A DNA stretch of 26,060 bases from Clostridia bacterium. Its GTDB lineage: Bacteria; CBDUZB01; JAGLHV01. The notes below the pieces were generated by a model that was not told the DNA's origin, ran no database searches, and was given only the letters and a program-made list of their open reading frames with translations. Shown in pieces: positions 13,874 through 26,060 of the stretch. The DNA is taken from the NCBI GenBank assembly GCA_030595925.1, contig JAUVLC010000026.1, positions 1 to 26,060 of the forward strand, in the 5' to 3' direction. A program made the translations under genes and the position numbers. Within the stretch, counting starts at the first letter, position 1, and the number at the start of each line of letters is the position of its first letter.

Positions 13874-14075
13874 CGAAGACAAAACAAAAGTCCATAGTCG
13901 ACAGTCCATAGTCCATAGATAACAGATAAAGACAACAGAAAAAAGACTGCAAATGGCGAATAGCAAATAGATAGTTATGAGTTAAAAAATTTGGGAATTT
14001 GAAGTTGGGATTTGGGAGTTTGAAAGGACAGTCCATAGTCCATAGATAACAGATAAAAGATAAAGACAGAAGACA
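13874..14075 (+). repeat. Intergenic repeat mosaic, further copies
   Basis: GTCCATAG-family units lie at 13890-13925 and 14030-14060, both continuing into GATAACAGATAAAGAC-like sequence, with a variant segment (GAGTTAAAAAATTTGGG to GGGAGTTTGAAAGG) between. The arrangement is the same as at 11997-12350. No gene is visible in the whole 13871-14478 gap (about 608 nt). Confidence 0.7.
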
Positions 14076-14090
14076 GGCAGAGAGGAAAAA

Positions 14091-14180
14091 GACGAGGGAT
14101 GATTATTCGCTTCGCTCATTAGGACGAGAGAAAAGAGCCGAAGGATGAGGGACGATCATTCGCTTTGCTCATTAGGACGA
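14091..14180 (+). repeat. Two 37-nt direct repeats, period 53 nt
   Basis: Copy 1 at 14091-14127 and copy 2 at 14144-14180 share GAYGAGGGAYGATYATTCGC and then TTYGCTCATTAGGACGA, differing at four positions. Each holds a small CGCTTCGC-type symmetry. Only two clear copies occur, with a 16-nt spacer, so this is not a CRISPR array. Confidence 0.7.
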
Positions 14181-14273
14181 AAGATGAAGGACGAAAGACG
14201 AAAGATATGGACATATATTTGCGATGTTAATCACAATGGAACGAAAAGTAAATACATTTTGTAAATAAAAAAG

Positions 14274-14333
14274 GTCGTGTTAGTGAACGAAGTGAACGGT
14301 CATTCTTCGTGTTAGCGAAGCGGTCGTCTTTCA
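14274..14333 (-). repeat. Related GTGTTAGYGAA repeats, opposite orientation
   Basis: Two tandem units beginning CGTGTTAGTGAACGAAGTG and CGTGTTAGCGAAGCGGTCG. On the minus strand they read CCGCTTCGCTAACACGA, which resembles the TTCGCTCATTAGGACGA part of the direct repeats at 14091-14180. The two clusters may be arms of one decayed inverted element. Confidence 0.45.
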
Positions 14334-14359
14334 TGGGGAGTTTGCTTAGGATTTAGTAT

Positions 14360-14422
14360 TTATTCTTTGTCTGTTATCCGTAATCTATGGACTATTGACT
14401 GTGAACTATGGACTGTCTTTTG
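14360..14422 (-). repeat. GTCCATAG-family repeat, inverted copy
   Basis: TCTTTGTCTGTTATCCGTA, then ATCTATGGACTATTGACTG and TGAACTATGGACTGTC, are the reverse complement of the units at 12191-12226 and 13890-13925. With the plus-strand copies upstream, this gives a potential long-range hairpin across the gap. Confidence 0.7.
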
Positions 14423-14425
14423 TCA

Positions 14426-14460
14426 TGACAATGTGTGACGCAACTATTTGTGACAATGTT
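14426..14460 (+). promoter_or_regulatory. Direct TGACAATGT repeats upstream of the sugar locus
   Basis: TGACAATGT occurs at 14426-14434 and again at 14451-14459, exactly 25 nt apart, each followed within a few bases by TGTGA or GTGA. They end about 20 nt before the TTG start at 14479. This could be an operator at the head of the sugar locus, but no promoter boxes are clear and the sites may equally be repeat debris. Confidence 0.25.
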
Positions 14461-14478
14461 TGTGAGGTGGGGGTTTAG

Positions 14479-16599
14479 TTGAAAAAGTTATCAATTATTT
14501 TAAAATATGGGGTGGTAGTCTTTTTTTTATTAAGCATTAATTATTTAACTGCTTTTTCTCAGGAGAAAAAAAGTACTACTCTTTATTTGTATTTTGCTGA
14601 TGAAGGCATTTATCCCGATACGAGTATTTTGCAAGACCCTTTTAATCCTTATGCTAAGTATTCAGCAAGTGAATTGGAAAGAGTTAAATGGAATCATATA
14701 GATAGTGGAAATCCGCGTGAGGATTTTTATGTATGGGCAACTCATCTTGCCCTGACTCCCGGAGCAGAAGCTCAATATTATACAGCGAAGGCTTTAGAAA
14801 AGGCAGGTTTATTGGAAGAACGTGTGCGTAATATGCCGCGTAAAGGAATGGTTTTTCGGGGTTTTGGTAATTTAAAAAAACAAGCGATTAGGGCATATCA
14901 GGTAATAATTGATTATTGGCCGCAAGCAAAGAGTTATGATCCGAGACAGAATTTATGGTGGTCATTGGAAGAAGGTGCCCGTGAAAATATTTACCGTTTG
15001 GGTGAAATACCGGTTATTCATCGCCGTACACCATTTTCCTTAGTAGGTGGAAAATACGAGATGAGAATGATAACTAATAATACTACAGGGTACAATCAAT
15101 ATGATTGGGCCTGGCATCCGGAAGGAGTAGAAACGGAAAAATGGGGGATTAATCAGTATCATTCTTTAGGAATGGATTGGGGTTTAAATTATGGCCGGCA
15201 GATTGAAGGGGTTTGTGGAATAGAAGTGTATGCCAATAAGGTTGCTTATTGGGACACTCTAACTTCCCGGGAAGAGAATGTCGGGATAGTTATTTCTAAA
15301 GTAAATTTAAATCTTTATGGAGATTTATTTGATACCTGGATATTTAAAAATGTAGGGCATTATCATTGGGGGGATATGCTGGGATTTTACCGGGAAATGT
15401 ATGAGACCGAGTGGGCTAAGCAATGTAATACATTTGCACCTCAAGGAGTGGAAATTAGTGGACGGGGGATTTTAGACGGGATTACTATGATTGCCGGAGA
15501 AGACCCGATTTGGGGAAATAGTTCGGAGGTTTTTCTAAAATATGAAAAAACCATAGAATTAATTAATTTTAAATTGATGTATAAAGACAAATTGACCGAT
15601 GAAGAAACAGGAAGAATAGATTATGTTTCCGGTGGAGGGATGAATTATTACGATTTTAATCCCTGGGATGATCAGATGAGCGCTTTCGCTTTAACCATTG
15701 GAGAAAAAGAAAGATTTTCTGTGGAATCAGAGATAGGAAAATTTGATGCCGATGAAAAAGATATAGTTTTGGGAATAAAGGGGAAGGTTAAACTTATTCC
15801 GGGACAAGCAGAAATTTTAGCGCAATATGTTAATGCCGAGTTGTATGCGGGGAACAAAAAGGAATTAAATCTGGAGGCAAAATTGATGCCTGTACCCTGG
15901 TTTACTTTGGAAGGCAGCTTTACTCAGCGGGAAAATATTCAGGGTCCTACTTCTGTATTTCCTCCCCTGGTTTTAGATAATAGGGAAGGAACAATTATTA
16001 AAGGGTCTGTTATTTTTGATACTACGCCGGAAATTCCTTTCCGACTCTGGGACGGGAAATTTAATGAAGATGAAAATGCCCCATTCGCTTTGGAAGCAGG
16101 ATATGAACTTGCCGATTATCCGGAATATACGGACAGGCAAAAACATTATAATTATGAGCATCAGGTTTGGTGGGAAGAAACAATTGGTTCTCAGGGGAGG
16201 TCCCCGGCGAAATTAGATAAAGTATTTGCTCGGTTGGTATTGAATCCTTTTAATCGGGGAGATAGTATAATAGTGAATTTTAGTACCGGTTTAAAGCAGG
16301 CGGAAGCAGGAGCGGTTCATGTAGTTGAGGAAACAACCCGTTTCAAAGATATTGAACTGAGTGCTAAAATAGGATTTTTTAGAGGAAAAATTAATTGTTT
16401 TCTGGATGATTGGATGCCTTACCAGATAGATGGCCCTTTATACGGGAAGACTTATGATGAGAGGTTTATCGTTTATTTGGGGCGGGTGTTTGACCGGGAA
16501 GAAAAATTAAAATTGGGTATAGAATATGAGCAGGTAAATGACGACGACCAATCAGCCGAGTATAAAGAGTATCGGCTTATTTGCAGTTTAAAATTTTAA
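14479..16599 (+). CDS. Predicted outer-membrane beta-barrel at the head of a sugar-uptake locus
   Basis: A 706-residue protein with a signal peptide ending near TAFSQ. I do not recognise a named family. The N-terminal part (about 30-170) is mixed, with DPFNPYAKYSASELERVKW and LWWSLEEGARENIYRLGEIP. From about 180 onward the sequence is dominated by alternating amphipathic strands rich in Tyr, Trp and Gly (GGKYEMRMITNN, YGRQIEGVCGIEVYANKVAY, DEREEKLKLGIEYEQV-type endings). The last residues are RLICSLKF, ending in Phe as expected for a barrel-assembly signal. The start is TTG with a very strong GAGGTGGGGG. It lies 80 nt before the ABC permease genes, so a porin or glycan-specific channel feeding that transporter is the natural inference. 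A mixed surface enzyme or binding protein is the alternative. Confidence 0.7.
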   Translation: MKKLSIILKYGVVVFFLLSINYLTAFSQEKKSTTLYLYFADEGIYPDTSILQDPFNPYAKYSASELERVKWNHIDSGNPREDFYVWATHLALTPGAEAQYYTAKALEKAGLLEERVRNMPRKGMVFRGFGNLKKQAIRAYQVIIDYWPQAKSYDPRQNLWWSLEEGARENIYRLGEIPVIHRRTPFSLVGGKYEMRMITNNTTGYNQYDWAWHPEGVETEKWGINQYHSLGMDWGLNYGRQIEGVCGIEVYANKVAYWDTLTSREENVGIVISKVNLNLYGDLFDTWIFKNVGHYHWGDMLGFYREMYETEWAKQCNTFAPQGVEISGRGILDGITMIAGEDPIWGNSSEVFLKYEKTIELINFKLMYKDKLTDEETGRIDYVSGGGMNYYDFNPWDDQMSAFALTIGEKERFSVESEIGKFDADEKDIVLGIKGKVKLIPGQAEILAQYVNAELYAGNKKELNLEAKLMPVPWFTLEGSFTQRENIQGPTSVFPPLVLDNREGTIIKGSVIFDTTPEIPFRLWDGKFNEDENAPFALEAGYELADYPEYTDRQKHYNYEHQVWWEETIGSQGRSPAKLDKVFARLVLNPFNRGDSIIVNFSTGLKQAEAGAVHVVEETTRFKDIELSAKIGFFRGKINCFLDDWMPYQIDGPLYGKTYDERFIVYLGRVFDREEKLKLGIEYEQVNDDDQSAEYKEYRLICSLKF

Positions 16600-16679: not shown

Positions 16680-17648
16680 ATGATTAAAAAGATTTTAAAG
16701 AAAATGAATTCTGAAGCAATAGGAGGGTATTTATTTATTTTACCTAATTTTATCGGATTTTTACTTTTTACTTCTTTACCGGTAGTTGCTTCTTTAGTAC
16801 TTAGTTTTTGCAAATGGGATTTATTTACCCCTTTCCCTAAATTTGTGGGATTGACTAATTTCGTAAAACTTTTTAGTTTTCATTTTAAAGACGGATTTAT
16901 TTTTCAGTCTTTATGGTCTTATTTTTCCTTCTGGCGTTATTTTATTCCTAATGACCCTGAATTTTGGTATTTTTTGTACAATACTGTTTTTTTTATGATT
17001 GGGATTCCTCTTTCTATGGCCGGGTCGTTGTTTTTAGCTATAGTGATGAATCGCAAGTTAAAAGGAATTACTTTTTTTAGGACAATTTTTTTCTTGCCGA
17101 CAATGTCTTCCGTAGTGGCTATTTGTTTGCTCTGGAGATGGGTATATAATACGAATTATGGATTGTTGAATGTTCTTTTATCTAAAATAGGTTTACCCGG
17201 ATTGCCCTGGTTAAACAGTACTCTCCTGGCTAAGCCGGCGCTTATTTTAATGGGGTTGTGGATTTGTATAGGGGGGTTTAATATGCTTTTATATTTGGCG
17301 GCTTTACAGGGTATTCCCCAATATTTATTTGAAGCTGCGGATATAGACGGAGCAAATGCCTGGCAAAAATTTAAACACATTATTTTACCGATTATTTCAC
17401 CAACGACTTTTTTTATTTTTATTATGAGCATTATTTCCGGTTTTCAGGGTGGATTCCAAAATGCTTATTTGATGACAAGGGGGGGGCCTGCAGGGTCAAC
17501 AACAACGTTAGAATATTATATATATAGCAATGCTTTTACCTGGCATCATATGGGATATGCCTCTGCTATTTCATGGTTTTTATTTGTAATTATTTTTGGT
17601 GTTACTATGTTAAATTGGCGGTATGGCGGGCAAAAAGTACATTATTGA
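16680..17648 (+). CDS. Sugar ABC transporter permease, MalF/UgpA type
   Basis: A 322-residue inner-membrane permease of the carbohydrate uptake type 1 family, with six predicted membrane segments (about 18-42, 100-122, 131-152, 183-205, 238-258, 290-312). The cytoplasmic coupling (EAA) motif is intact: EAADIDGANAWQKFKHIILP from Glu218, with the conserved G and final LP. The C-terminal part GGPAGSTTTLEYYIY is also typical. RBS TAGGAG precedes the ATG. The gene is followed after 18 nt by the second permease. No ATPase gene is present in the window. Confidence 0.95.
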   Translation: MIKKILKKMNSEAIGGYLFILPNFIGFLLFTSLPVVASLVLSFCKWDLFTPFPKFVGLTNFVKLFSFHFKDGFIFQSLWSYFSFWRYFIPNDPEFWYFLYNTVFFMIGIPLSMAGSLFLAIVMNRKLKGITFFRTIFFLPTMSSVVAICLLWRWVYNTNYGLLNVLLSKIGLPGLPWLNSTLLAKPALILMGLWICIGGFNMLLYLAALQGIPQYLFEAADIDGANAWQKFKHIILPIISPTTFFIFIMSIISGFQGGFQNAYLMTRGGPAGSTTTLEYYIYSNAFTWHHMGYASAISWFLFVIIFGVTMLNWRYGGQKVHY

Positions 17649-17666: not shown

Positions 17667-18512
17667 GTGGATAAGAAAAAAAGTTTAAAAAAGCAGAAAT
17701 TAATTTTAGATATAGTTATTTATTGTATACTTTCAATAGTAGGGATAACGATGCTTTTCCCTTTTTTATGGATGTTTTCTACTTCCCTGAAAGATTTGAG
17801 CCAGGTATTTACTACCGGTATAAATCTTATTCCCAATCCTATTAAATGGAGTAATTATGTTAAAGCCTGGAGTTCAATTCCTTTTGGAAGATTTTATATA
17901 AACAGTATTTTTGTTGCCGTAACAATAACTGCAGGGCAGGTATTTACCAGCAGTTTAGCTGCCTATGCTTTTGCCCGTTTAAAATTTCCGGGAAGAGATA
18001 AATTGTTTTTTGGCTATTTAGCCACAATGATGATTCCCGGGACAGTAACGATGATTCCGGTATTTATTTTAATGAAAACTATGGGTTGGTTGGATACCTA
18101 TAAAGCATTGATTTTACCGGGGATGTTTACTGCTTATGGGACTTTTATGCTGCGGCAGTTTTTTATGACGTTACCCCATGATCTGGAGGATGCAGCTAAG
18201 ATTGACGGATGTAGTTTGTTTGGTATTTATTGGCGGGTAATTCTCCCCTTATCCAAGCCTGCGTTGGCGACATTGGCTACTTTTACTTTTATCTGGAATT
18301 GGGGTAATTTCATTTGGCCATTGGTTATAACTAATTCGGAAAAAATGAAGACATTGCCCATCGGACTTTCTTATTTTCAGGATTTACATTCTACGGAATG
18401 GACTTTACTTATGGCTGCATCTCTTATTGTGCTTGTTCCGGCGTTGATTGTTTTTATTTTTAATCAACGTTTTTTTACCAGAGGAATAGCTTTAACCGGG
18501 ATGAAAGGCTAA
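17667..18512 (+). CDS. Sugar ABC transporter permease, MalG/UgpE type
   Basis: A 281-residue partner permease. It starts at a GTG with AGGGGGAGA upstream. After a Lys-rich N-terminus come the MalG-type first helix (ILSIVGITMLFPFLWMFSTS) and the typical NYVKAWSSIPFGRFYINSIF and AYAFARLKFPGRD segments. The coupling motif DLEDAAKIDGCSLFGIYWRV is at about 172-191, followed by ILPLSKP. The C-terminus, RFFTRGIALTGMKG, is the classical RFF-RGLT-GAVKG-like end of this family. It forms the membrane channel with the preceding permease. Confidence 0.95.
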   Translation: MDKKKSLKKQKLILDIVIYCILSIVGITMLFPFLWMFSTSLKDLSQVFTTGINLIPNPIKWSNYVKAWSSIPFGRFYINSIFVAVTITAGQVFTSSLAAYAFARLKFPGRDKLFFGYLATMMIPGTVTMIPVFILMKTMGWLDTYKALILPGMFTAYGTFMLRQFFMTLPHDLEDAAKIDGCSLFGIYWRVILPLSKPALATLATFTFIWNWGNFIWPLVITNSEKMKTLPIGLSYFQDLHSTEWTLLMAASLIVLVPALIVFIFNQRFFTRGIALTGMKG

Positions 18513-18750: not shown

Positions 18751-20094
18751 ATGCAGGGGTTTTTTAAGAGAATGAAAAAGTGTTCAGGGTTGTTGTTGGT
18801 TGGTTTAAGTGTGATTTTGTTAGCGGGATGTGGAAAAAAGGAGGAGGTGGAAGGTAAAAAAGTAAATATTCGGCTTGCTTTTTGGGGGGGTGTAGAGGAG
18901 AAAAAAATAATTACCGATATTGTTACTGATTGGGAAGTAAAACAATCAAAAATAAAAGTAGAGTTGGAACATATTCCTGTTACTTCTTATCTGGATAAAA
19001 TATTAACGGAAATTGCAGGGAGAAGAGCTCCGGATGTAATTTTTTGTGATGTAAATGCTTTTGTTCCCTTTTTTTATAAAAATGTTCTTTTGGATTTAAC
19101 CCCTTTAATTGAGAAAGATGAACAATTCAATGTTAAGATAAAGGATTTTTTTCCGGAAGTTTTAGCTCGATTTACCAGAGAGGGAAAAATTTTCTGTATT
19201 CCCCGGGATACTGCACCTTTTGCAGTAATTTATTATAACAAAGATTTATTTGACCGGTTAAAAATTCCTTATCCTACTGATGATTGGGATTGGGATACAT
19301 TCTTGAAAATAGCCAGGAAATTAACCGTTGATGAAACAGGGAAACATCCTGAGGATAAAGGATTTAATGATAAAAAAGTGAAGCGTTATGGGTTTTGGTG
19401 TTGGACCTGGCAAAATTTTGTTTATAGTAACGGAGGGAAAATAGTTGATGATATAAATAATCCTACTACTTGTCTCTTAAATCAGCCGGAAGCAGTAGAA
19501 GGTTATCAATTTTATGTGGATTTAATGAATAAATATAATGTAGCTCCTTCCGGAGATGCCTTAGCTAATATGGGGATAGGAATTGACCAGATGTTTGCTA
19601 TGGGGAAATTGGGAATGTATCAATCAGGAATTTGGGATACACCTCATTTGAGGGAAATGCTTAAATGTAATTGGGATGTAGTTATGTTTCCTAAAGGGCC
19701 GAAAGGAATAAGAGGATTTGCTACCGGAGGTTCCGGATATGCAATAACATCTGCAACAGAGCATCCTCAGGAAGCATGGGAAGTAGTAAAATGTTTAGCC
19801 GGGGATGAAGGACAGGAAAAATTAGCGGATACAGGGCTTGCTCAACCGGCAAATCGGAAAATAGCCGAAGGAATCCATTTTGCTCAAGGTTCTGCTGCCC
19901 CTTTAAATAAGGGGATGTTAAATGAAGCGGTTAAATATGTAGTTTACGATCCGTTTCATATTCGTTGGCGGGAAGCACAGGATAAATATATTACCCCTAA
20001 ATTGGATTTAATTAATTCCGGGAAAATATCCGTTGAAGAAGGATTCAAAAAAATAGTTCCCAGGGTAAATATTTTGTTGCAGGAAAAAGAATAA
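18751..20094 (+). CDS. Extracellular sugar-binding lipoprotein of the ABC importer
   Basis: A 447-residue family 1 solute-binding protein. The lipobox LLAGC places the lipid on Cys27. The mature part begins VNIRLAFWGGVEEKKIITDI and has the family pattern: DVIFCDVNAFVPFF, LLDLTPLIEKD, IFCIPRDTAPFAVIYYNKDLFDRLKIPYP, WDWDTFLKIARKLT, FATGGSGYAITSATEHPQEA and a long C-terminal helix region. AAAGGAGG gives an excellent RBS. It should be anchored on the inner membrane facing the periplasm and deliver sugar to the two permeases just upstream. The specific sugar cannot be read from the sequence; the GH35-type enzyme downstream suggests galactosides. Confidence 0.93.
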   Translation: MQGFFKRMKKCSGLLLVGLSVILLAGCGKKEEVEGKKVNIRLAFWGGVEEKKIITDIVTDWEVKQSKIKVELEHIPVTSYLDKILTEIAGRRAPDVIFCDVNAFVPFFYKNVLLDLTPLIEKDEQFNVKIKDFFPEVLARFTREGKIFCIPRDTAPFAVIYYNKDLFDRLKIPYPTDDWDWDTFLKIARKLTVDETGKHPEDKGFNDKKVKRYGFWCWTWQNFVYSNGGKIVDDINNPTTCLLNQPEAVEGYQFYVDLMNKYNVAPSGDALANMGIGIDQMFAMGKLGMYQSGIWDTPHLREMLKCNWDVVMFPKGPKGIRGFATGGSGYAITSATEHPQEAWEVVKCLAGDEGQEKLADTGLAQPANRKIAEGIHFAQGSAAPLNKGMLNEAVKYVVYDPFHIRWREAQDKYITPKLDLINSGKISVEEGFKKIVPRVNILLQEKE

Positions 20095-20164
20095 TATTAG
20101 AAAACGGAGAACGTTGGAATCAGGTTTTTATCAAAACTTCATTTAATAAAGGAAGCGATTGGTA

Positions 20165-20773
20165 ATGAGGGGGAAAAAAACCGCATTTACTTTACTTGAA
20201 CTGATGATTGCCGTTGGTATTATTAGTTTATTGGCAATAGTGGCGATTCCTCAATTTGTTGATTTAATAGGTAAGTCAAAAGAGGCAACCACCAAGGGTA
20301 ATTTAGCAATTTTAAGAACAGCGGTTAGTGTTTATTATGCAGATAACGAAGGAATGTGGCCGCAGCAAAATAAAATATTGGATAATGATGCCACCTGGCA
20401 TTATGAAAGCAGTTGGTATCCGGGAGCAACCGGGGTCGATACTCGTCCGGGGTATTTTGAAGATTTAATGGTAATGCAGGATAATGACACACAGCCTAAA
20501 TATCTCGAACGGGTTCCTAAAGCTTATATTGGTCAAAACTGGAGGGGCGCAGGGGGATTTAATAAAGAGGGAACAAGTATCGTGGGAACTTATCATATTG
20601 ATGTGCAGACGGGTGTTCCGGGGACGGGAAGTATTGCCAGGCGAGGACCGGATACGGAATGGTTGTGGGAAGTATGGATGTATTGTTGTGATACAGGAGA
20701 GGTTTGGGTTAATGCCAATAAATTTGCCGGTCCAAGATTTGATACAAAAGGTAAGCCGATTACAAGCTGGTAA
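20165..20773 (+). CDS. Type IV pilin-like protein (pseudopilin)
   Basis: About 202 residues from the ATG at 20165 (a TTG at 20159 is too close to the GGAAG site). The N-terminus RGKKTAFTLLELMIAVGII is a class III prepilin signal: cleavage before Phe, Glu at +5, then a hydrophobic helix. The residue before the cleavage site is Ala rather than Gly, as I recall for many such proteins in Planctomycetes and relatives. The helix continues with SKEATTKGNLAILRTAVSVY, as in GspG/PilA-like proteins. The globular part contains WPQQN, DTRPGYFEDLMV, LERVPKAYIG and ends DTGEVWVNANKFAG with ITSW. No other pilus or secretion gene is nearby. Its position between the sugar-binding and GH35 genes suggests a glycan-related surface or periplasmic role, which is an inference. 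Confidence 0.85.
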   Translation: MRGKKTAFTLLELMIAVGIISLLAIVAIPQFVDLIGKSKEATTKGNLAILRTAVSVYYADNEGMWPQQNKILDNDATWHYESSWYPGATGVDTRPGYFEDLMVMQDNDTQPKYLERVPKAYIGQNWRGAGGFNKEGTSIVGTYHIDVQTGVPGTGSIARRGPDTEWLWEVWMYCCDTGEVWVNANKFAGPRFDTKGKPITSW

Positions 20774-20790: not shown

Positions 20791-22917
20791 ATGAATTCTG
20801 TTAATTTAAAGGATGGTTATTTTCAGGTCAATGGGAAAAAGCAGTTTATTCTATCGGGAGAAGTGCAATATTTTAGAATTGAAAAAAATAAGTGGAGAAA
20901 AATGTTAGATGGTTTGTGTGAGGCAAACTGCAATACTCTTTCTACTTATGTCCCCTGGAATTGGCATGAATATGAACAAGGAAAGTTTGATTTTACCGGA
21001 AAGACTCATCCCAGCAGAGACCTGGTAAGTTTTTTAAAATTAGTTAAGGAATATGGCTTGAATTTAATTATTAAAGGGGGACCCCATATTCATGCGGAGT
21101 TTTTAAACGGAGGTATTCCTAAATGGGTTCTTTCCGGGTATCCGGAAGTGCTTTGTTTAGATAGTGAAGGAAAACCTACCGGCAATTATGCTTTTTATCC
21201 TCCGGTAACCTATCTTCATCCGACTTATATGCAGTTGGTAAAAAAATGGTATAAAGCATTTACCGAAATAGTGCTTCCTTATGACAATGTTATTTTATGG
21301 CAAATAGATAATGAAGTGAGTTATAGTTTATCTTTTTTTCATTATTCATCCGGGCAGGCTTTTACCGGAGACTATAATCCTTTTCTGGTAAAAAAAAATG
21401 GGCTTTATCAACAATATTTAAGTAAAAAATTCGAAGATATAAAGGATTTGAATGTCCGTTATGGAGAGAACAATACGGATTTTGCTTTGGTTTCTCCTCC
21501 CCGGAAAGAGCCGTCTAATAAGGAAGAACAATTTAAAGTTTTTGATTGGTGTGAATTTCGGGAAAAATTAGTAGCAATGTATGCGCGTTCTTTGATGGAA
21601 ATACTTTTTGAGTTAGGTTGTCGGGGTCCTTTTAGTGTTGATGATCCGCTTTTAGGGTATGATACATCATGGAGAGGTATTTATGATGAGGTTAAAGATT
21701 CGCGTTGGCAGGTAGTTATCGGCTATACCTATTATACCGGCAATATGGAAGAGGAATCAATGGGTTATCATCTTTCCCGTATAGAATTTACCAGGGCTTC
21801 AGGAACCCCTGTGGTTTCTAACCATGAAATTCAGGCGGGAAATGTGTATTTTCTTCCACATTGGAAACAGTCTCCCTCGGATTATGATTTGATATGGAAG
21901 ACTTCCATTGGGTTTGGCAGTAATATGCTTAATTTTTATTGGTTCTGTGATGGATATAATTTCTTGGGATATGAGCATTTTTTGCCGGAAATGAATTTTT
22001 CTTCTCCCTTAGATAGGGATGGAAATAAGAGATTTCAATTTGGAATAATCAAGAAAATAGGGGAAATGCTTAAAAAGTATCCGGAAATTGTAGAAACTAA
22101 ACCGGATTATGATTTGGCCGTTGGATTTTATCACCCTTATGCCCGGATGGGTAAGTTCGGTAATTTAGAGGGGATAGGGAATTTTGAATTAAGCAAAGGC
22201 GGGGCGGTTGGTTCTTTTATAGATCTTTTGGGAGTGTGTAATATTAATTTTCAAATGCTTAATTTAGAAGAAAACATCGAAGAAAACATTTTTGCCCGCC
22301 CATCAAAATTAGTTGTTCTTTGTTATGAATTTTTAGATAAAAATATTCAAAAATCTTTGCTTGATTATGTTTCTGCCGGAGGACATTTGATTTTATTAAA
22401 TCAAATACCTTCTAAGGATGAAAATTTGCAGGAATGTAAGATATTGTACGATGCTTTAAAAATAGCAAGAATGGATTCTATTCCCAAGGGGAAAGGTTTT
22501 TTTGAAATAAATAGGGTGGGATATAAAAATTATGATTTTTGTGTTTATGATGATTTACAGGTGTATGAGTTTAATGACCGGGATTATATTCAGGATATGA
22601 CTTCTTTTTCATCGGGTAGAATATGTGGATTTACCAGGAATGTCGGAGAAGGAAAAATCTCGGTTGTCGGATTTGTTCCCCGGGTTTTTCTGAATGTTTC
22701 CAGAAATTTTGCCCGGGATTATTTTGAGAAAAAATCGCGGGATGAGATTTTAGTTTATGAACGGAAAAATAAAGATTTTTCGCTTTTTACGGTATGTAAT
22801 TTATCGGAAAAAGAAGAAAAAACAGAACTTAATAAAAAAGAATTTATTGTACCTCCCCGTCGAGCAACTTTTATTGTTAAAAAAGGTGAAAATTATGAAA
22901 AGTGGGGAGAAGATTAA
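20791..22917 (+). CDS. Beta-galactosidase-like glycoside hydrolase, GH35-type, cytoplasmic
   Basis: A 708-residue enzyme without signal peptide. The N-terminal half is a TIM-barrel of the GH35 type: QFILSGEVQYFRIEKNKWRK, NTLSTYVPWNWHEYEQGKFD, LIIKGGPHIHAEFLNGGIP and WQIDNEV, with Glu175 the expected acid/base. Glu346 in VVSNHEIQAG is the best candidate nucleophile. The pattern mixes GH35 features with GH42-like ones, so family assignment is likely but not certain. Residues about 450-590 look like a GATase-like domain (LAVGFYHPY, SKLVVLCYEFLD, LLDYVSAGGHLILLN), as in the trimerisation domain of GH42-type enzymes. The rest is a C-terminal beta domain. It starts 17 nt after the pilin gene with AAAGGGGG upstream, and overlaps or abuts the next gene. 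Confidence 0.85.
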   Translation: MNSVNLKDGYFQVNGKKQFILSGEVQYFRIEKNKWRKMLDGLCEANCNTLSTYVPWNWHEYEQGKFDFTGKTHPSRDLVSFLKLVKEYGLNLIIKGGPHIHAEFLNGGIPKWVLSGYPEVLCLDSEGKPTGNYAFYPPVTYLHPTYMQLVKKWYKAFTEIVLPYDNVILWQIDNEVSYSLSFFHYSSGQAFTGDYNPFLVKKNGLYQQYLSKKFEDIKDLNVRYGENNTDFALVSPPRKEPSNKEEQFKVFDWCEFREKLVAMYARSLMEILFELGCRGPFSVDDPLLGYDTSWRGIYDEVKDSRWQVVIGYTYYTGNMEEESMGYHLSRIEFTRASGTPVVSNHEIQAGNVYFLPHWKQSPSDYDLIWKTSIGFGSNMLNFYWFCDGYNFLGYEHFLPEMNFSSPLDRDGNKRFQFGIIKKIGEMLKKYPEIVETKPDYDLAVGFYHPYARMGKFGNLEGIGNFELSKGGAVGSFIDLLGVCNINFQMLNLEENIEENIFARPSKLVVLCYEFLDKNIQKSLLDYVSAGGHLILLNQIPSKDENLQECKILYDALKIARMDSIPKGKGFFEINRVGYKNYDFCVYDDLQVYEFNDRDYIQDMTSFSSGRICGFTRNVGEGKISVVGFVPRVFLNVSRNFARDYFEKKSRDEILVYERKNKDFSLFTVCNLSEKEEKTELNKKEFIVPPRRATFIVKKGENYEKWGED

Positions 22918-22925
22918 GAGGGGTT

Positions 22926-24164
22926 ATGAAAAAGATAGATTTAGAAATGTGGGTTATGCCCAATGCCTCTTTTAAGACCGGGTTGACTTTTGGACAGGAA
23001 TTGAAAGAGTTTTCGAAAAAATATCCACATATAAATGTAAAAGTAAAGGTTCATACATGGTCATCTGCGTGGAGACTTATTATGAAAGCGGTACGGACCA
23101 AGCAAGGTCCGGATATTTTTCAGTTGGGCAGTAGCTGGGGTGATACTCTTGCTTATTTAGGAGGATTAGCTGATATTAGTAAACCCGTAGAAGAATTAAA
23201 AAAGAAACATTTTTTTTCTCCTCTTAATAAACAAATGGAAGAATCTTTTAAAGAAGAGAAAATATATTCCCTTCCCTGGTTTATGGATACCAGGATACTT
23301 TTTTATCGAAAAGATATTTTCCGAAAGGCAGGATTAAAAGAAGAGGATATTGGAGATTGGGATTCATTTCAAAAATCTTGCCGAAAAATAGCGAGTCTTA
23401 AAATAAAAGGGAAAAAAATTTATCCCCTGGCGGTTTCCGGAGCAAAAAGTTGGACATTAATCCATGATATTGCTCCGTGGATTTGGTCGGGAGGGGGAGA
23501 ATTTTTAAATTTTAAAGGTAAAAAAATAAGTTTTCAGCAAAGAGAATCTCTAAAAGGAATGAAATTTTATTTTGATCTGGTTAAAACTTACGGGAGTAAG
23601 ATTGCCTTAGGGCAAAATATGGGCAAGGTAATGGAGAATTTTTTTATTTACGGGCGTTGTGCTATGCACTTTTCCGGAACATGGGTTTTTTCTGTTTTTC
23701 TTAATCCTAATAGTCATTTATACCGGGCGGAAATTGCCGAAAATATTGGAATAGCTCTGCCTCCTGCCGGACCTGCGGGGCGATATGCTTTTTTGGGTGG
23801 AAGCAATCTGGGGGTTGCTAAATTTTCTAAATATCCCCGGGAAGCATGGGAGTTAATTTCTTTTTTAACCTCTCCTTCGTCTCAATTACGCTATACAAAA
23901 GCGATTAGTAATCTTCCTGTTCATTCTAAAATATTTGATGCGTTTTTTTTCGAGGATAAACAATTAGCGGAAAAATTTAAACAAATATGTTCTTTTGGTA
24001 AGATGTTTCCCCCGGTATTTTCATGGGGGATTATTGAGACAATTATGATAGAAATGCTGACAGAGATTTTCAATAGTATAAGGAAAGGTCGATATACGGA
24101 AAATCTTCTTAAAAAAGAGATAAAAAAGATTTCTTCCGAAATAAATTTTGTTCTTTCCCTTTAA
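22926..24164 (+). CDS. Family 1 solute-binding-like protein lacking a signal peptide
   Basis: A 413-residue protein that begins directly with the mature fold: MKKIDLEMWVMPNASFKTGL, then FSKKYPHINVKVKVHTW. No signal peptide or lipobox exists from this ATG. The alternative GTG at 22902 adds only MGRRLRGV, which is not a signal either. The family pattern is complete: GPDIFQLGSSWGDTLAYLG, LADISKP, YSLPWFMDTRILFYRKDIFR, FLGGSNLGVAKFSKYPREAW. The ATG follows AGAGGGG, and the GTG version would overlap the GH35 gene. The protein should therefore stay in the cytoplasm, next to a glycoside hydrolase and a diguanylate cyclase. A cytoplasmic sugar sensor is the attractive explanation; a decayed importer subunit is the alternative. 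Confidence 0.88.
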   Translation: MKKIDLEMWVMPNASFKTGLTFGQELKEFSKKYPHINVKVKVHTWSSAWRLIMKAVRTKQGPDIFQLGSSWGDTLAYLGGLADISKPVEELKKKHFFSPLNKQMEESFKEEKIYSLPWFMDTRILFYRKDIFRKAGLKEEDIGDWDSFQKSCRKIASLKIKGKKIYPLAVSGAKSWTLIHDIAPWIWSGGGEFLNFKGKKISFQQRESLKGMKFYFDLVKTYGSKIALGQNMGKVMENFFIYGRCAMHFSGTWVFSVFLNPNSHLYRAEIAENIGIALPPAGPAGRYAFLGGSNLGVAKFSKYPREAWELISFLTSPSSQLRYTKAISNLPVHSKIFDAFFFEDKQLAEKFKQICSFGKMFPPVFSWGIIETIMIEMLTEIFNSIRKGRYTENLLKKEIKKISSEINFVLSL

Positions 24165-24249
24165 AAAATATTTAAAAAAAAGATATTTTTTTAAATAATA
24201 AATTTCAATATAGGTAATGTTGATTTATAGATTTATAAAAAGGAAATAG

Positions 24250-25716
24250 ATGTCTATGGTTAAAGAAAATTTGAATAAATATTCGGAAAAACTCAGAAAG
24301 GTTAGTAAAATTTTTCGTTATACCCAACCAAATTTGGAAGAAATTCTTAAACAGGTTTTAGATGTCGGGTTTTCTACTTTAAAGTTTGATTGGATGGAAA
24401 TATTATTATGGGATAATGAAAGAAAAGTTTTAGAAACAAAAGTGGTTGCTGAAAAAGATGGGATAATGGAAGGGGAAGAAGAGGTTTTTGTTTCGGAAAA
24501 AACTGATCCGAGAATAATAGTGGGTTTAGGCAGGGAAGAATGTATTGTAAGAAAGAAAAAAGGAGCGGAAGGATTTTTTTCAATAAAAAGTGGTAGTAAA
24601 ATCTTAGGGGTTTTAGGGGTAAATAATCGATTGAGCGGGAGAAATATAGAAGAGTGGCAGATTTCGTTGCTTAAAGAATATGCCGAAGAGATTGGTGTAG
24701 GAATTTGGAGTTTGGAATTACTTTTGAAGGAACAAATACAGGCAGAAAAGTTTAAAGCCCTTTCTAAAATAGGAATGGCTTTAGTAAGCCAATTAAAACT
24801 GGAAAATAGAATAAAAATAATTTTGCGTAGTATTATCAAACATTTAAGTATTGAACGGGTTAAATTATATCTGGTAAATGAAGAAAAAAAAGTATTACAG
24901 GGAACAATGTCTTTTGATCTCAGGGGAAAATTTCATGTTTTAAAGGAAGTATATTCTTTAAAAAAGAAAGCCCATCCTGAAGTTTTTATGGTGATGAAAA
25001 AAGATGCCCAGGAAATAGGGTCTTTCGGATTGGTTTTTTCTGTTCCGTTGAAAGTAGAAAAAAAGATAGTTGGATTTCTTGTTGCCGATAATGTTTTTAG
25101 CCGGGAACGAATTAAAAAAGAAGATATTGAGTATTTGAAGCTTTTTGCTCAGCAGGCTAGTATTTCCATAGAAAATGCCCGGCTTTTTAATGATGTCGAA
25201 AGACTTTCTCTTACCGATGGATTAACAGGTTTATATACTAATAGGTATTTCAGAAAACGTCTTGGGGATGAAATTGTTCGAACAACAAGGCTTAAAACGA
25301 AGCTTGCTTTAGCTATTATTGATGTTGATTATTTCAAAAGGTATAATGACTCTTACGGTCATATGGTTGGAGATCGCTTATTAGTTGATTTAGCCGGAAT
25401 AATTATGAAAAATATCCGTCAGGTGGACTTTGCTGCCCGTTATGGCGGGGATGAATTTGTTGTTTTTTTTCCAAATACGTCTTTGGAAGGGGTACAAATT
25501 GTTACTTTTCGTTTACTGAAAGCAATTAAAAATTATTATATGCCTATTTCAGGAAAAAAAATACGCTTTAGTGTAAGTATGGGGTTAGCTATTTATCCTT
25601 CTAATGCACGAAATAAAGAAGCTTTATTTAGAAAAGCGGATAGAGCTCTTTATCGGGCTAAGGCACAAGGAAGAAATCAGGCTTGTTTTTATTCCGAATC
25701 ATTGGATAAAAAGTAA
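24250..25716 (+). CDS. GAF-GAF-GGDEF diguanylate cyclase
   Basis: A 488-residue soluble signalling enzyme. Two GAF-type domains occupy about 22-155 and 165-312 (the second ends SISIENARLFNDVERLS, the usual GAF-to-output helix). The catalytic domain follows from about 318: DGLTGLYTNRYF, IDVDYFKRYNDSYGHMVGD, and the active-site loop GGDEF at 399-403. The product-inhibition site RxxD is intact (Arg390 to Asp393, five residues before GGDEF). It should make c-di-GMP from two GTP and be feedback-inhibited. There is no membrane segment, so the signal is cytoplasmic. RBS AAAAAGGA precedes the ATG, 85 nt after the binding-like gene. Confidence 0.95.
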   Translation: MSMVKENLNKYSEKLRKVSKIFRYTQPNLEEILKQVLDVGFSTLKFDWMEILLWDNERKVLETKVVAEKDGIMEGEEEVFVSEKTDPRIIVGLGREECIVRKKKGAEGFFSIKSGSKILGVLGVNNRLSGRNIEEWQISLLKEYAEEIGVGIWSLELLLKEQIQAEKFKALSKIGMALVSQLKLENRIKIILRSIIKHLSIERVKLYLVNEEKKVLQGTMSFDLRGKFHVLKEVYSLKKKAHPEVFMVMKKDAQEIGSFGLVFSVPLKVEKKIVGFLVADNVFSRERIKKEDIEYLKLFAQQASISIENARLFNDVERLSLTDGLTGLYTNRYFRKRLGDEIVRTTRLKTKLALAIIDVDYFKRYNDSYGHMVGDRLLVDLAGIIMKNIRQVDFAARYGGDEFVVFFPNTSLEGVQIVTFRLLKAIKNYYMPISGKKIRFSVSMGLAIYPSNARNKEALFRKADRALYRAKAQGRNQACFYSESLDKK

Positions 25717-25973: not shown

Positions 25974-26002
25974 AGGGAAAATCTTCTGTAAATAGGGGGA
26001 GG

Positions 26003-26060
26003 TAGCCGCAGGCTTTAGCCTGCGTTATCGTTGGAGATTTTTCGCAGGCTAAAGCCTGCG
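26003..26060. repeat. REP doublet with CGCAGGCT palindromes
   Basis: GTAG (26003-26006 region) leads into the perfect palindrome CGCAGGCTTTAGCCTGCG (26007-26024). After an 18-nt spacer a second one, CGCAGGCTAAAGCCTGCG (26043-26060), ends at the window edge. This is a common dispersed repeat type. A convergent partner would carry GCTAC just past the window. Confidence 0.8.

Follow-up and report, generated by a model that had tools for sequence, protein, structure and literature searches.

A solute-binding protein without an export signal, genetically linked to a soluble GAF-GAF-GGDEF protein, as a candidate cytoplasmic sugar receptor for c-di-GMP signalling

In Vibrio cholerae the periplasmic solute-binding protein (SBP) NspS, which acts in the response to polyamines, controls the membrane-bound GGDEF-EAL protein MbaA. 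The locus described here resembles that system in that a separate SBP, as putative receptor subunit, is genetically linked to a c-di-GMP enzyme that it may gate; it differs in that the SBP has no leader and the cyclase no membrane segment, so that both would be soluble and cytoplasmic, and in that the SBP is of a β-glucoside family. An SBP fold also serves as input to c-di-GMP enzymes in RmcA, where an SBP_bac_3 domain is fused to a phosphodiesterase (PMC8846402), and in CdgH, a cyclase with tandem PBPb domains (PMC5431781), but those domains are fused and extracytoplasmic, not free cytoplasmic proteins of CUT1 type. A cytoplasmic sugar-system protein in complex with a c-di-GMP enzyme is known from EIIAGlc-PdeS of V. 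cholerae (PMC8846402), whose input is the phosphorylation state of the PTS, whereas the input proposed for our pair is sugar binding itself. PMC9602780 describes solute-binding proteins as extracytosolic, every SBP that we found in the literature as input to a c-di-GMP enzyme acts across the membrane, and our search of the open-access literature found no leaderless or cytoplasmic SBP controlling a cyclase. Two described importer proteins, CbpB of Clostridium thermocellum (7x0i) and βGlyBP of Thermus thermophilus (7c63 series), belong to the same subfamily as our SBP over its full length, with the stacking tryptophans kept; both are exported, whereas the SBP studied here is leaderless, lies beside a cyclase and falls in a separate clade.

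The window that we analysed, 26,060 nucleotides, corresponds to the complete contig C171 in a metagenome-assembled genome of 2.6 Mb (G000), for which two genomes of the same genus (G001 and G002) were available for comparison. The genes at its right end follow the order two permeases, lipoprotein SBP, prepilin-like gene, GH35-type gene, leaderless SBP and GAF-GAF-GGDEF gene (Table 1), with 8 nt between the end of the GH35-type gene and the start of the leaderless SBP. We recognised no ATPase gene in the importer locus, a feature shared with CbpB loci, which likewise have none beside the importer (PMC9601137). Apart from the lipoprotein SBP and the leaderless SBP, we found no family-1 SBP in this genome. 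A preliminary description had placed the leaderless SBP between a cytoplasmic GH35-type enzyme and a soluble cyclase, and the open reading frames are as it gave them; scans of the enzyme and the cyclase for membrane segments and leaders found neither. The GH35-type enzyme matches GH35, GH42 and GLMA_2nd in Pfam, and its closest solved relatives are exo-β-glucosaminidases (GLMA) and a β-1,2-glucosyltransferase. The prepilin-like gene (20159-20773, with an N_methyl motif) between the lipoprotein SBP and the GH35-type gene is kept in G001, with a dN/dS of 0.18.

Table 1. Features at the right end of the window, with the basis of each assignment
Feature	Position	Strand	Basis
Two ABC sugar-importer permeases	16680-17648 and 17667-18512	+	ORFs; blastp homologues in other sugar-importer loci
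Importer's lipoprotein SBP, with lipobox, AbnE/UspC-like	18751..20094	+	Pfam, similarity, hydrophobicity scan
GH35-type/GLMA-like enzyme, predicted cytoplasmic	20791..22917	+	Pfam, nearest solved relatives, no signal peptide
Leaderless family-1 SBP, predicted CbpB/βGlyBP type, 412 aa	22926..24164	+	ORF, Pfam, 7x0i match
Trp45 of leaderless SBP, equivalent of CbpB Trp90	23058..23060	+	Alignment; Trp in 26/26 leaderless homologues
Trp253 of leaderless SBP, equivalent of CbpB Trp296	23682..23684	+	Alignment
Predicted GAF-GAF-GGDEF diguanylate cyclase, soluble, 488 aa	24250..25716	+	ORF, Pfam, hhalign
Cyclase GAF-like domain 1, missed by Pfam	24277..24720	+	hhalign against second GAF: probability 97.8, E 8e-13
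Cyclase GAF domain 2	24802..25176	+	PF13492, 3e-13
Cyclase RQVD I-site and GGDEF active-site motif, both intact	25417..25458	+	Motif reading

The absence of a leader, the conservation of the SBP and its genetic linkage to the cyclase are well supported. As first described, the protein has a full family 1 fold without a signal peptide, and we agree on both counts: the SBP is full length (Pfam SBP_bac_1, 1e-32), and no leader is encoded from any start, whether the ATG or the alternative GTG at 22902, the frame opening just 9 codons 5' of the ATG. Its best 11-residue mean hydrophobicity is -0.14, against 3.14 in the importer's own SBP, in which the lipobox previously ascribed to it accompanies this hydrophobic stretch. 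A hidden upstream leader is ruled out, since the frame shuts after 9 codons and the relatives agree. In G001 and G002 the protein (94% and 85% identity) likewise lacks a leader, and the order GH35, SBP, cyclase is kept; with the leader missing from each of the three species, frameshift and misassembly are ruled out as causes, and homologues in two further lineages are leaderless as well. Among the three species dN/dS is 0.08-0.12 for the leaderless SBP, 0.10 for the lipoprotein SBP, 0.08-0.09 for the GH35-type gene and 0.10-0.13 for the cyclase. The leaderless SBP is thus intact and under purifying selection, which rules out a decaying pseudogene, and it is probably a cytoplasmic protein.

Leaderless SBPs of this kind have a single origin. 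An 11-residue hydrophobicity scan cleanly set apart 26 leaderless homologues, with no more than 15 residues ahead of the fold and scores of 1.2 or below. Of 24 other homologues, 23 carry a plain leader, scoring 2.3 or above; in the one remaining, from G333, 83 residues precede the fold, more than the scan covered. In an IQ-TREE phylogeny of 52 rows that included CbpB and βGlyBP, the 26 leaderless rows form one side of a branch with support 97/96, and the clade nests beside signal-bearing β-glucoside binders. Leaderless folds contain a mean of 5.5 cysteines against 2.5 in the exported relatives, as expected for proteins of a reducing, cytoplasmic compartment, although the members of the clade are not independent data. 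Other family-1 SBPs that we read in the G240 lineage and in G253 do have leaders.

By phmmer the leaderless SBP matches CbpB 7x0i with an E-value of 2e-70 over residues 4-410 and βGlyBP 7c63 with 8e-62, which places it by descent in the CUT1-type (SBP_bac_1) β-gluco-oligosaccharide-binding family, as far as homology can tell; because the export signal is absent in 26 clade members, we do not file it as an importer SBP. The fold assignment is by sequence homology; AlphaFold models reached a pLDDT of 38 from the single sequence and 44 from an 8-row alignment, values too low for a usable structure and probably due to the shallowness of the alignment. In CbpB, W90 and W296 stack on the sugar (PMC9601137), and their equivalents are present here, the CbpB numbering having been matched through the 206-residue spacing of the tryptophan pair. 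Cello-, laminari- and other β-gluco-oligosaccharides are ligands of the closest solved relatives (PMC9601137), a GH94 gene downstream of the cyclase in the sister species G002 would fit such sugars, and our best guess for the ligand is a β-linked gluco- or glucosamino-oligosaccharide.

The 24250-25716 protein is a predicted diguanylate cyclase with an intact active-site motif. Pfam recognises its GGDEF domain (PF00990, 8e-43) and the second GAF domain only; profile comparison with hhalign indicates that residues 1-157 are a GAF-like repeat homologous to that second GAF. GGDEF and RxxD sites had been reported as intact, and the sequence does read RQVD-x5-GGDEF, with RYGGDEF at residues 397-403. 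We ruled out that it is one of many SBP-linked cyclases in this genome: of its eight further GGDEF matches none adjoins an SBP gene, and their N-termini, where readable, are mostly of response-regulator types, the others being partial.

Conservation of the pair extends beyond the genus in a search of 386 genomes. In G116 and G253, two species of one other genus, a leaderless SBP (38 and 37% identity) is directly followed by a full-length GAF-GAF-GGDEF protein (38 and 37%, E about 1e-100), with a gap of 12 nt in G253. The neighbours of this pair are unrelated genes, with a deaminase upstream in both genomes and a cytidylate kinase downstream in G253, and we found neither a transporter nor a glycosidase beside it; in G116, a genome of 96% completeness, we detected no family-1 SBP other than the leaderless one. 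In G387, the third genome of that genus (81% complete), neither the leaderless SBP nor the cyclase was found. Adjacency is thus present in five genomes of two lineages, and outside the window's genus it is supported by two species of a single genus. A third lineage (G240, G368, G390, G391 and G392, all five examined of its phylum) has 2-9 leaderless SBPs per genome. The phylum of G357 (four genomes) gave no match and viral contigs gave no relatives; relatives on plasmids all fall below 60% identity, and those ranking highest (about 31%, from Thermus) carry annotations as transporter SBPs.

The sensory half of the cyclase (residues 1-317) has a correspondingly narrow distribution. At E ≤ 1e-12 it was detected in 7 of 386 genomes (G000, G001, G002, G116, G253, G240 and G368), and these are exactly the seven of the 386 with leaderless SBPs, a co-occurrence with a chance of about 4e-7 when families are counted and lineages are taken as independent. 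Part of it may reflect kinship or gene exchange, since the G000 and G240 lineages have a further GAF-GGDEF protein in common: the best outside match of the G000 copy lies in G240, at 52% identity, and this closeness makes two of the three lineages less independent. As a control, the GAF domain of another G000 cyclase matched 250 of 366 genomes, with a shorter query and a looser cut-off (1e-8 versus 1e-12), which indicates that the sharp distribution of the sensory half is untypical of GAF-GGDEF proteins.

The arrangement differs in the third lineage. The cyclase relative of G240, G368, G391 and G392 lies in a type IV pilus/secretion cluster, apart from the SBP genes. In the three relatives that we aligned (L154 5282-6799, L155 6972-8402 and L158 7547-9010), all within type IV pilus/type II secretion clusters, the RxxD site is kept and the GGDEF motif is degenerate (RFEGDG), so that it may read c-di-GMP or act in regulation instead of being a cyclase. 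In G390, with its nine leaderless SBPs, the cyclase sensory half matched only weakly. Leaderless SBP genes of G391 and G392 are divergent from a GAF-HD-GYP gene whose HD and GYP motifs are intact (L138 10559-11686 and L140 6312-7424), and a second conserved leaderless SBP of the G240 lineage is about five genes from a PAS-GGDEF-HD-GYP gene. We also observed a PilZ gene (L140 233-625) a few genes from the GAF-HD-GYP gene of G392. The leaderless SBP paralogues of G390 occur in tandem arrays of six (L136 291-8040, minus strand) and three (L137 5636-9362, minus strand), the gene following the array of six encoding a PAS protein cut by the contig end.

Taken together, we favour, with a probability of roughly 0.55, the reading that the leaderless SBP is a soluble cytoplasmic sugar receptor for c-di-GMP signalling, drawn from a monophyletic leaderless branch of CUT1-type proteins. 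A β-linked oligosaccharide, imported or made internally, would close the two-lobed SBP; the closed (or open) form would then dock on the GAF pair of the co-expressed cyclase, shifting the geometry of the cyclase dimer and altering c-di-GMP output, with feedback on the cyclase at the RxxD site. Physical contact between the two proteins, direct control of the cyclase and the direction of that control are inferred. The SBP would probably report from inside the cell which sugars are present. The signalling module suggested in the preliminary description gains from the homologues being leaderless and from the adjacency recurring outside the genus, in G116 and G253; it fares less well in the third lineage, where the genes are unlinked and the GGDEF motif is degenerate. 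Its further claim, that the module senses sugar brought in by the adjoining importer, does not generalise, because the G116/G253 pair stands alone and we detected just one family-1 SBP, the leaderless one, in G116. More tentatively, and with somewhat less than even confidence, we propose a family of cytoplasmic receptors descended once from β-glucoside importer SBPs through loss of the export signal, and serving as interchangeable sugar-sensing subunits of soluble c-di-GMP enzymes (cyclase, HD-GYP and perhaps PAS proteins) in several deep-branching uncultured lineages.

If the receptor reading is right, a Venus-flytrap receptor has been re-used as a free cytoplasmic sensor, unfused to its output domain, and intracellular oligosaccharides have a direct route to c-di-GMP that bypasses the PTS. 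Both proteins are small and soluble, and in vitro tests of the pair would be easy.

Among the competing explanations, we consider it unlikely that the SBP is a cytoplasmic sugar sensor or carrier without effect on the cyclase, the two genes being merely co-regulated within a response to carbohydrates and the GAF domains reading some small molecule for themselves. Small ligands (cAMP, GDP) are indeed bound directly by GAF domains known from c-di-GMP enzymes (PMC8846402), and SBP and cyclase genes are unlinked in one lineage; against this, G116 and G253 retain exactly the SBP and the cyclase outside any sugar locus, and the cyclase sensory half co-occurs with leaderless SBPs. Quite improbable, in our judgement, is a purely metabolic role in which the SBP buffers imported oligosaccharides or shuttles them to the cytoplasmic GH35 and GH94 enzymes. 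The adjoining GH35-type gene and the GH94 gene of the sister species would suit such a role, but the G116/G253 pair has no such enzymes alongside, G116 has no other family-1 SBP that we could find, and leaderless members elsewhere sit away from recognised glycosidase genes.

We give slightly less credence still to the idea that the fold no longer binds sugar and persists beside the signalling enzyme as its scaffold or decoy. The leaderless clade does vary at several positions that exported relatives conserve, and W176 is lost in most of its members; however, W45, W71, W118, R123, W187, the GGS motif and others are invariant or nearly so, and the SBP of the window retains both W176 and W253. 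Least probable, and very much so, is an ordinary importer SBP, either exported by a non-classical route or deprived of its leader by mis-annotation, frameshift or decay: a full-length SBP just downstream of an importer invites that view, but the frame shuts 9 codons upstream, 26 homologues in three lineages are leaderless while exported relatives clearly have leaders, dN/dS is about 0.1 and the importer has a lipoprotein SBP of its own, the leader scan and dN/dS refuting the mis-annotation and decay variants outright.

Three further observations concern related loci and the contig itself. In G102 (L097 1725-5953, minus strand) a signal-bearing CbpB-like SBP and its permeases directly follow a GGDEF gene and an EAL-HDOD gene, a further neighbourhood of SBP and c-di-GMP genes in which the SBP is exported. 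Open frames of about 740-800 residues occur in several lineages (L005, L081, L082, L084, L088 and L090); in L005, the one that we read completely, a single protein combines a leader with a family-1 SBP and an ABC permease. In the window, the non-coding stretches 13880-14480 and 25990-26060 contain short repeated phrases, such as 'gtccatagtccatag' and 'attcgctt(c/t)gctcattaggacga', and a hairpin, GCAGGC-TTTA-GCCTGC, lies close to the contig end and recurs at its very end, which suggests dispersed repeats that possibly broke the assembly.
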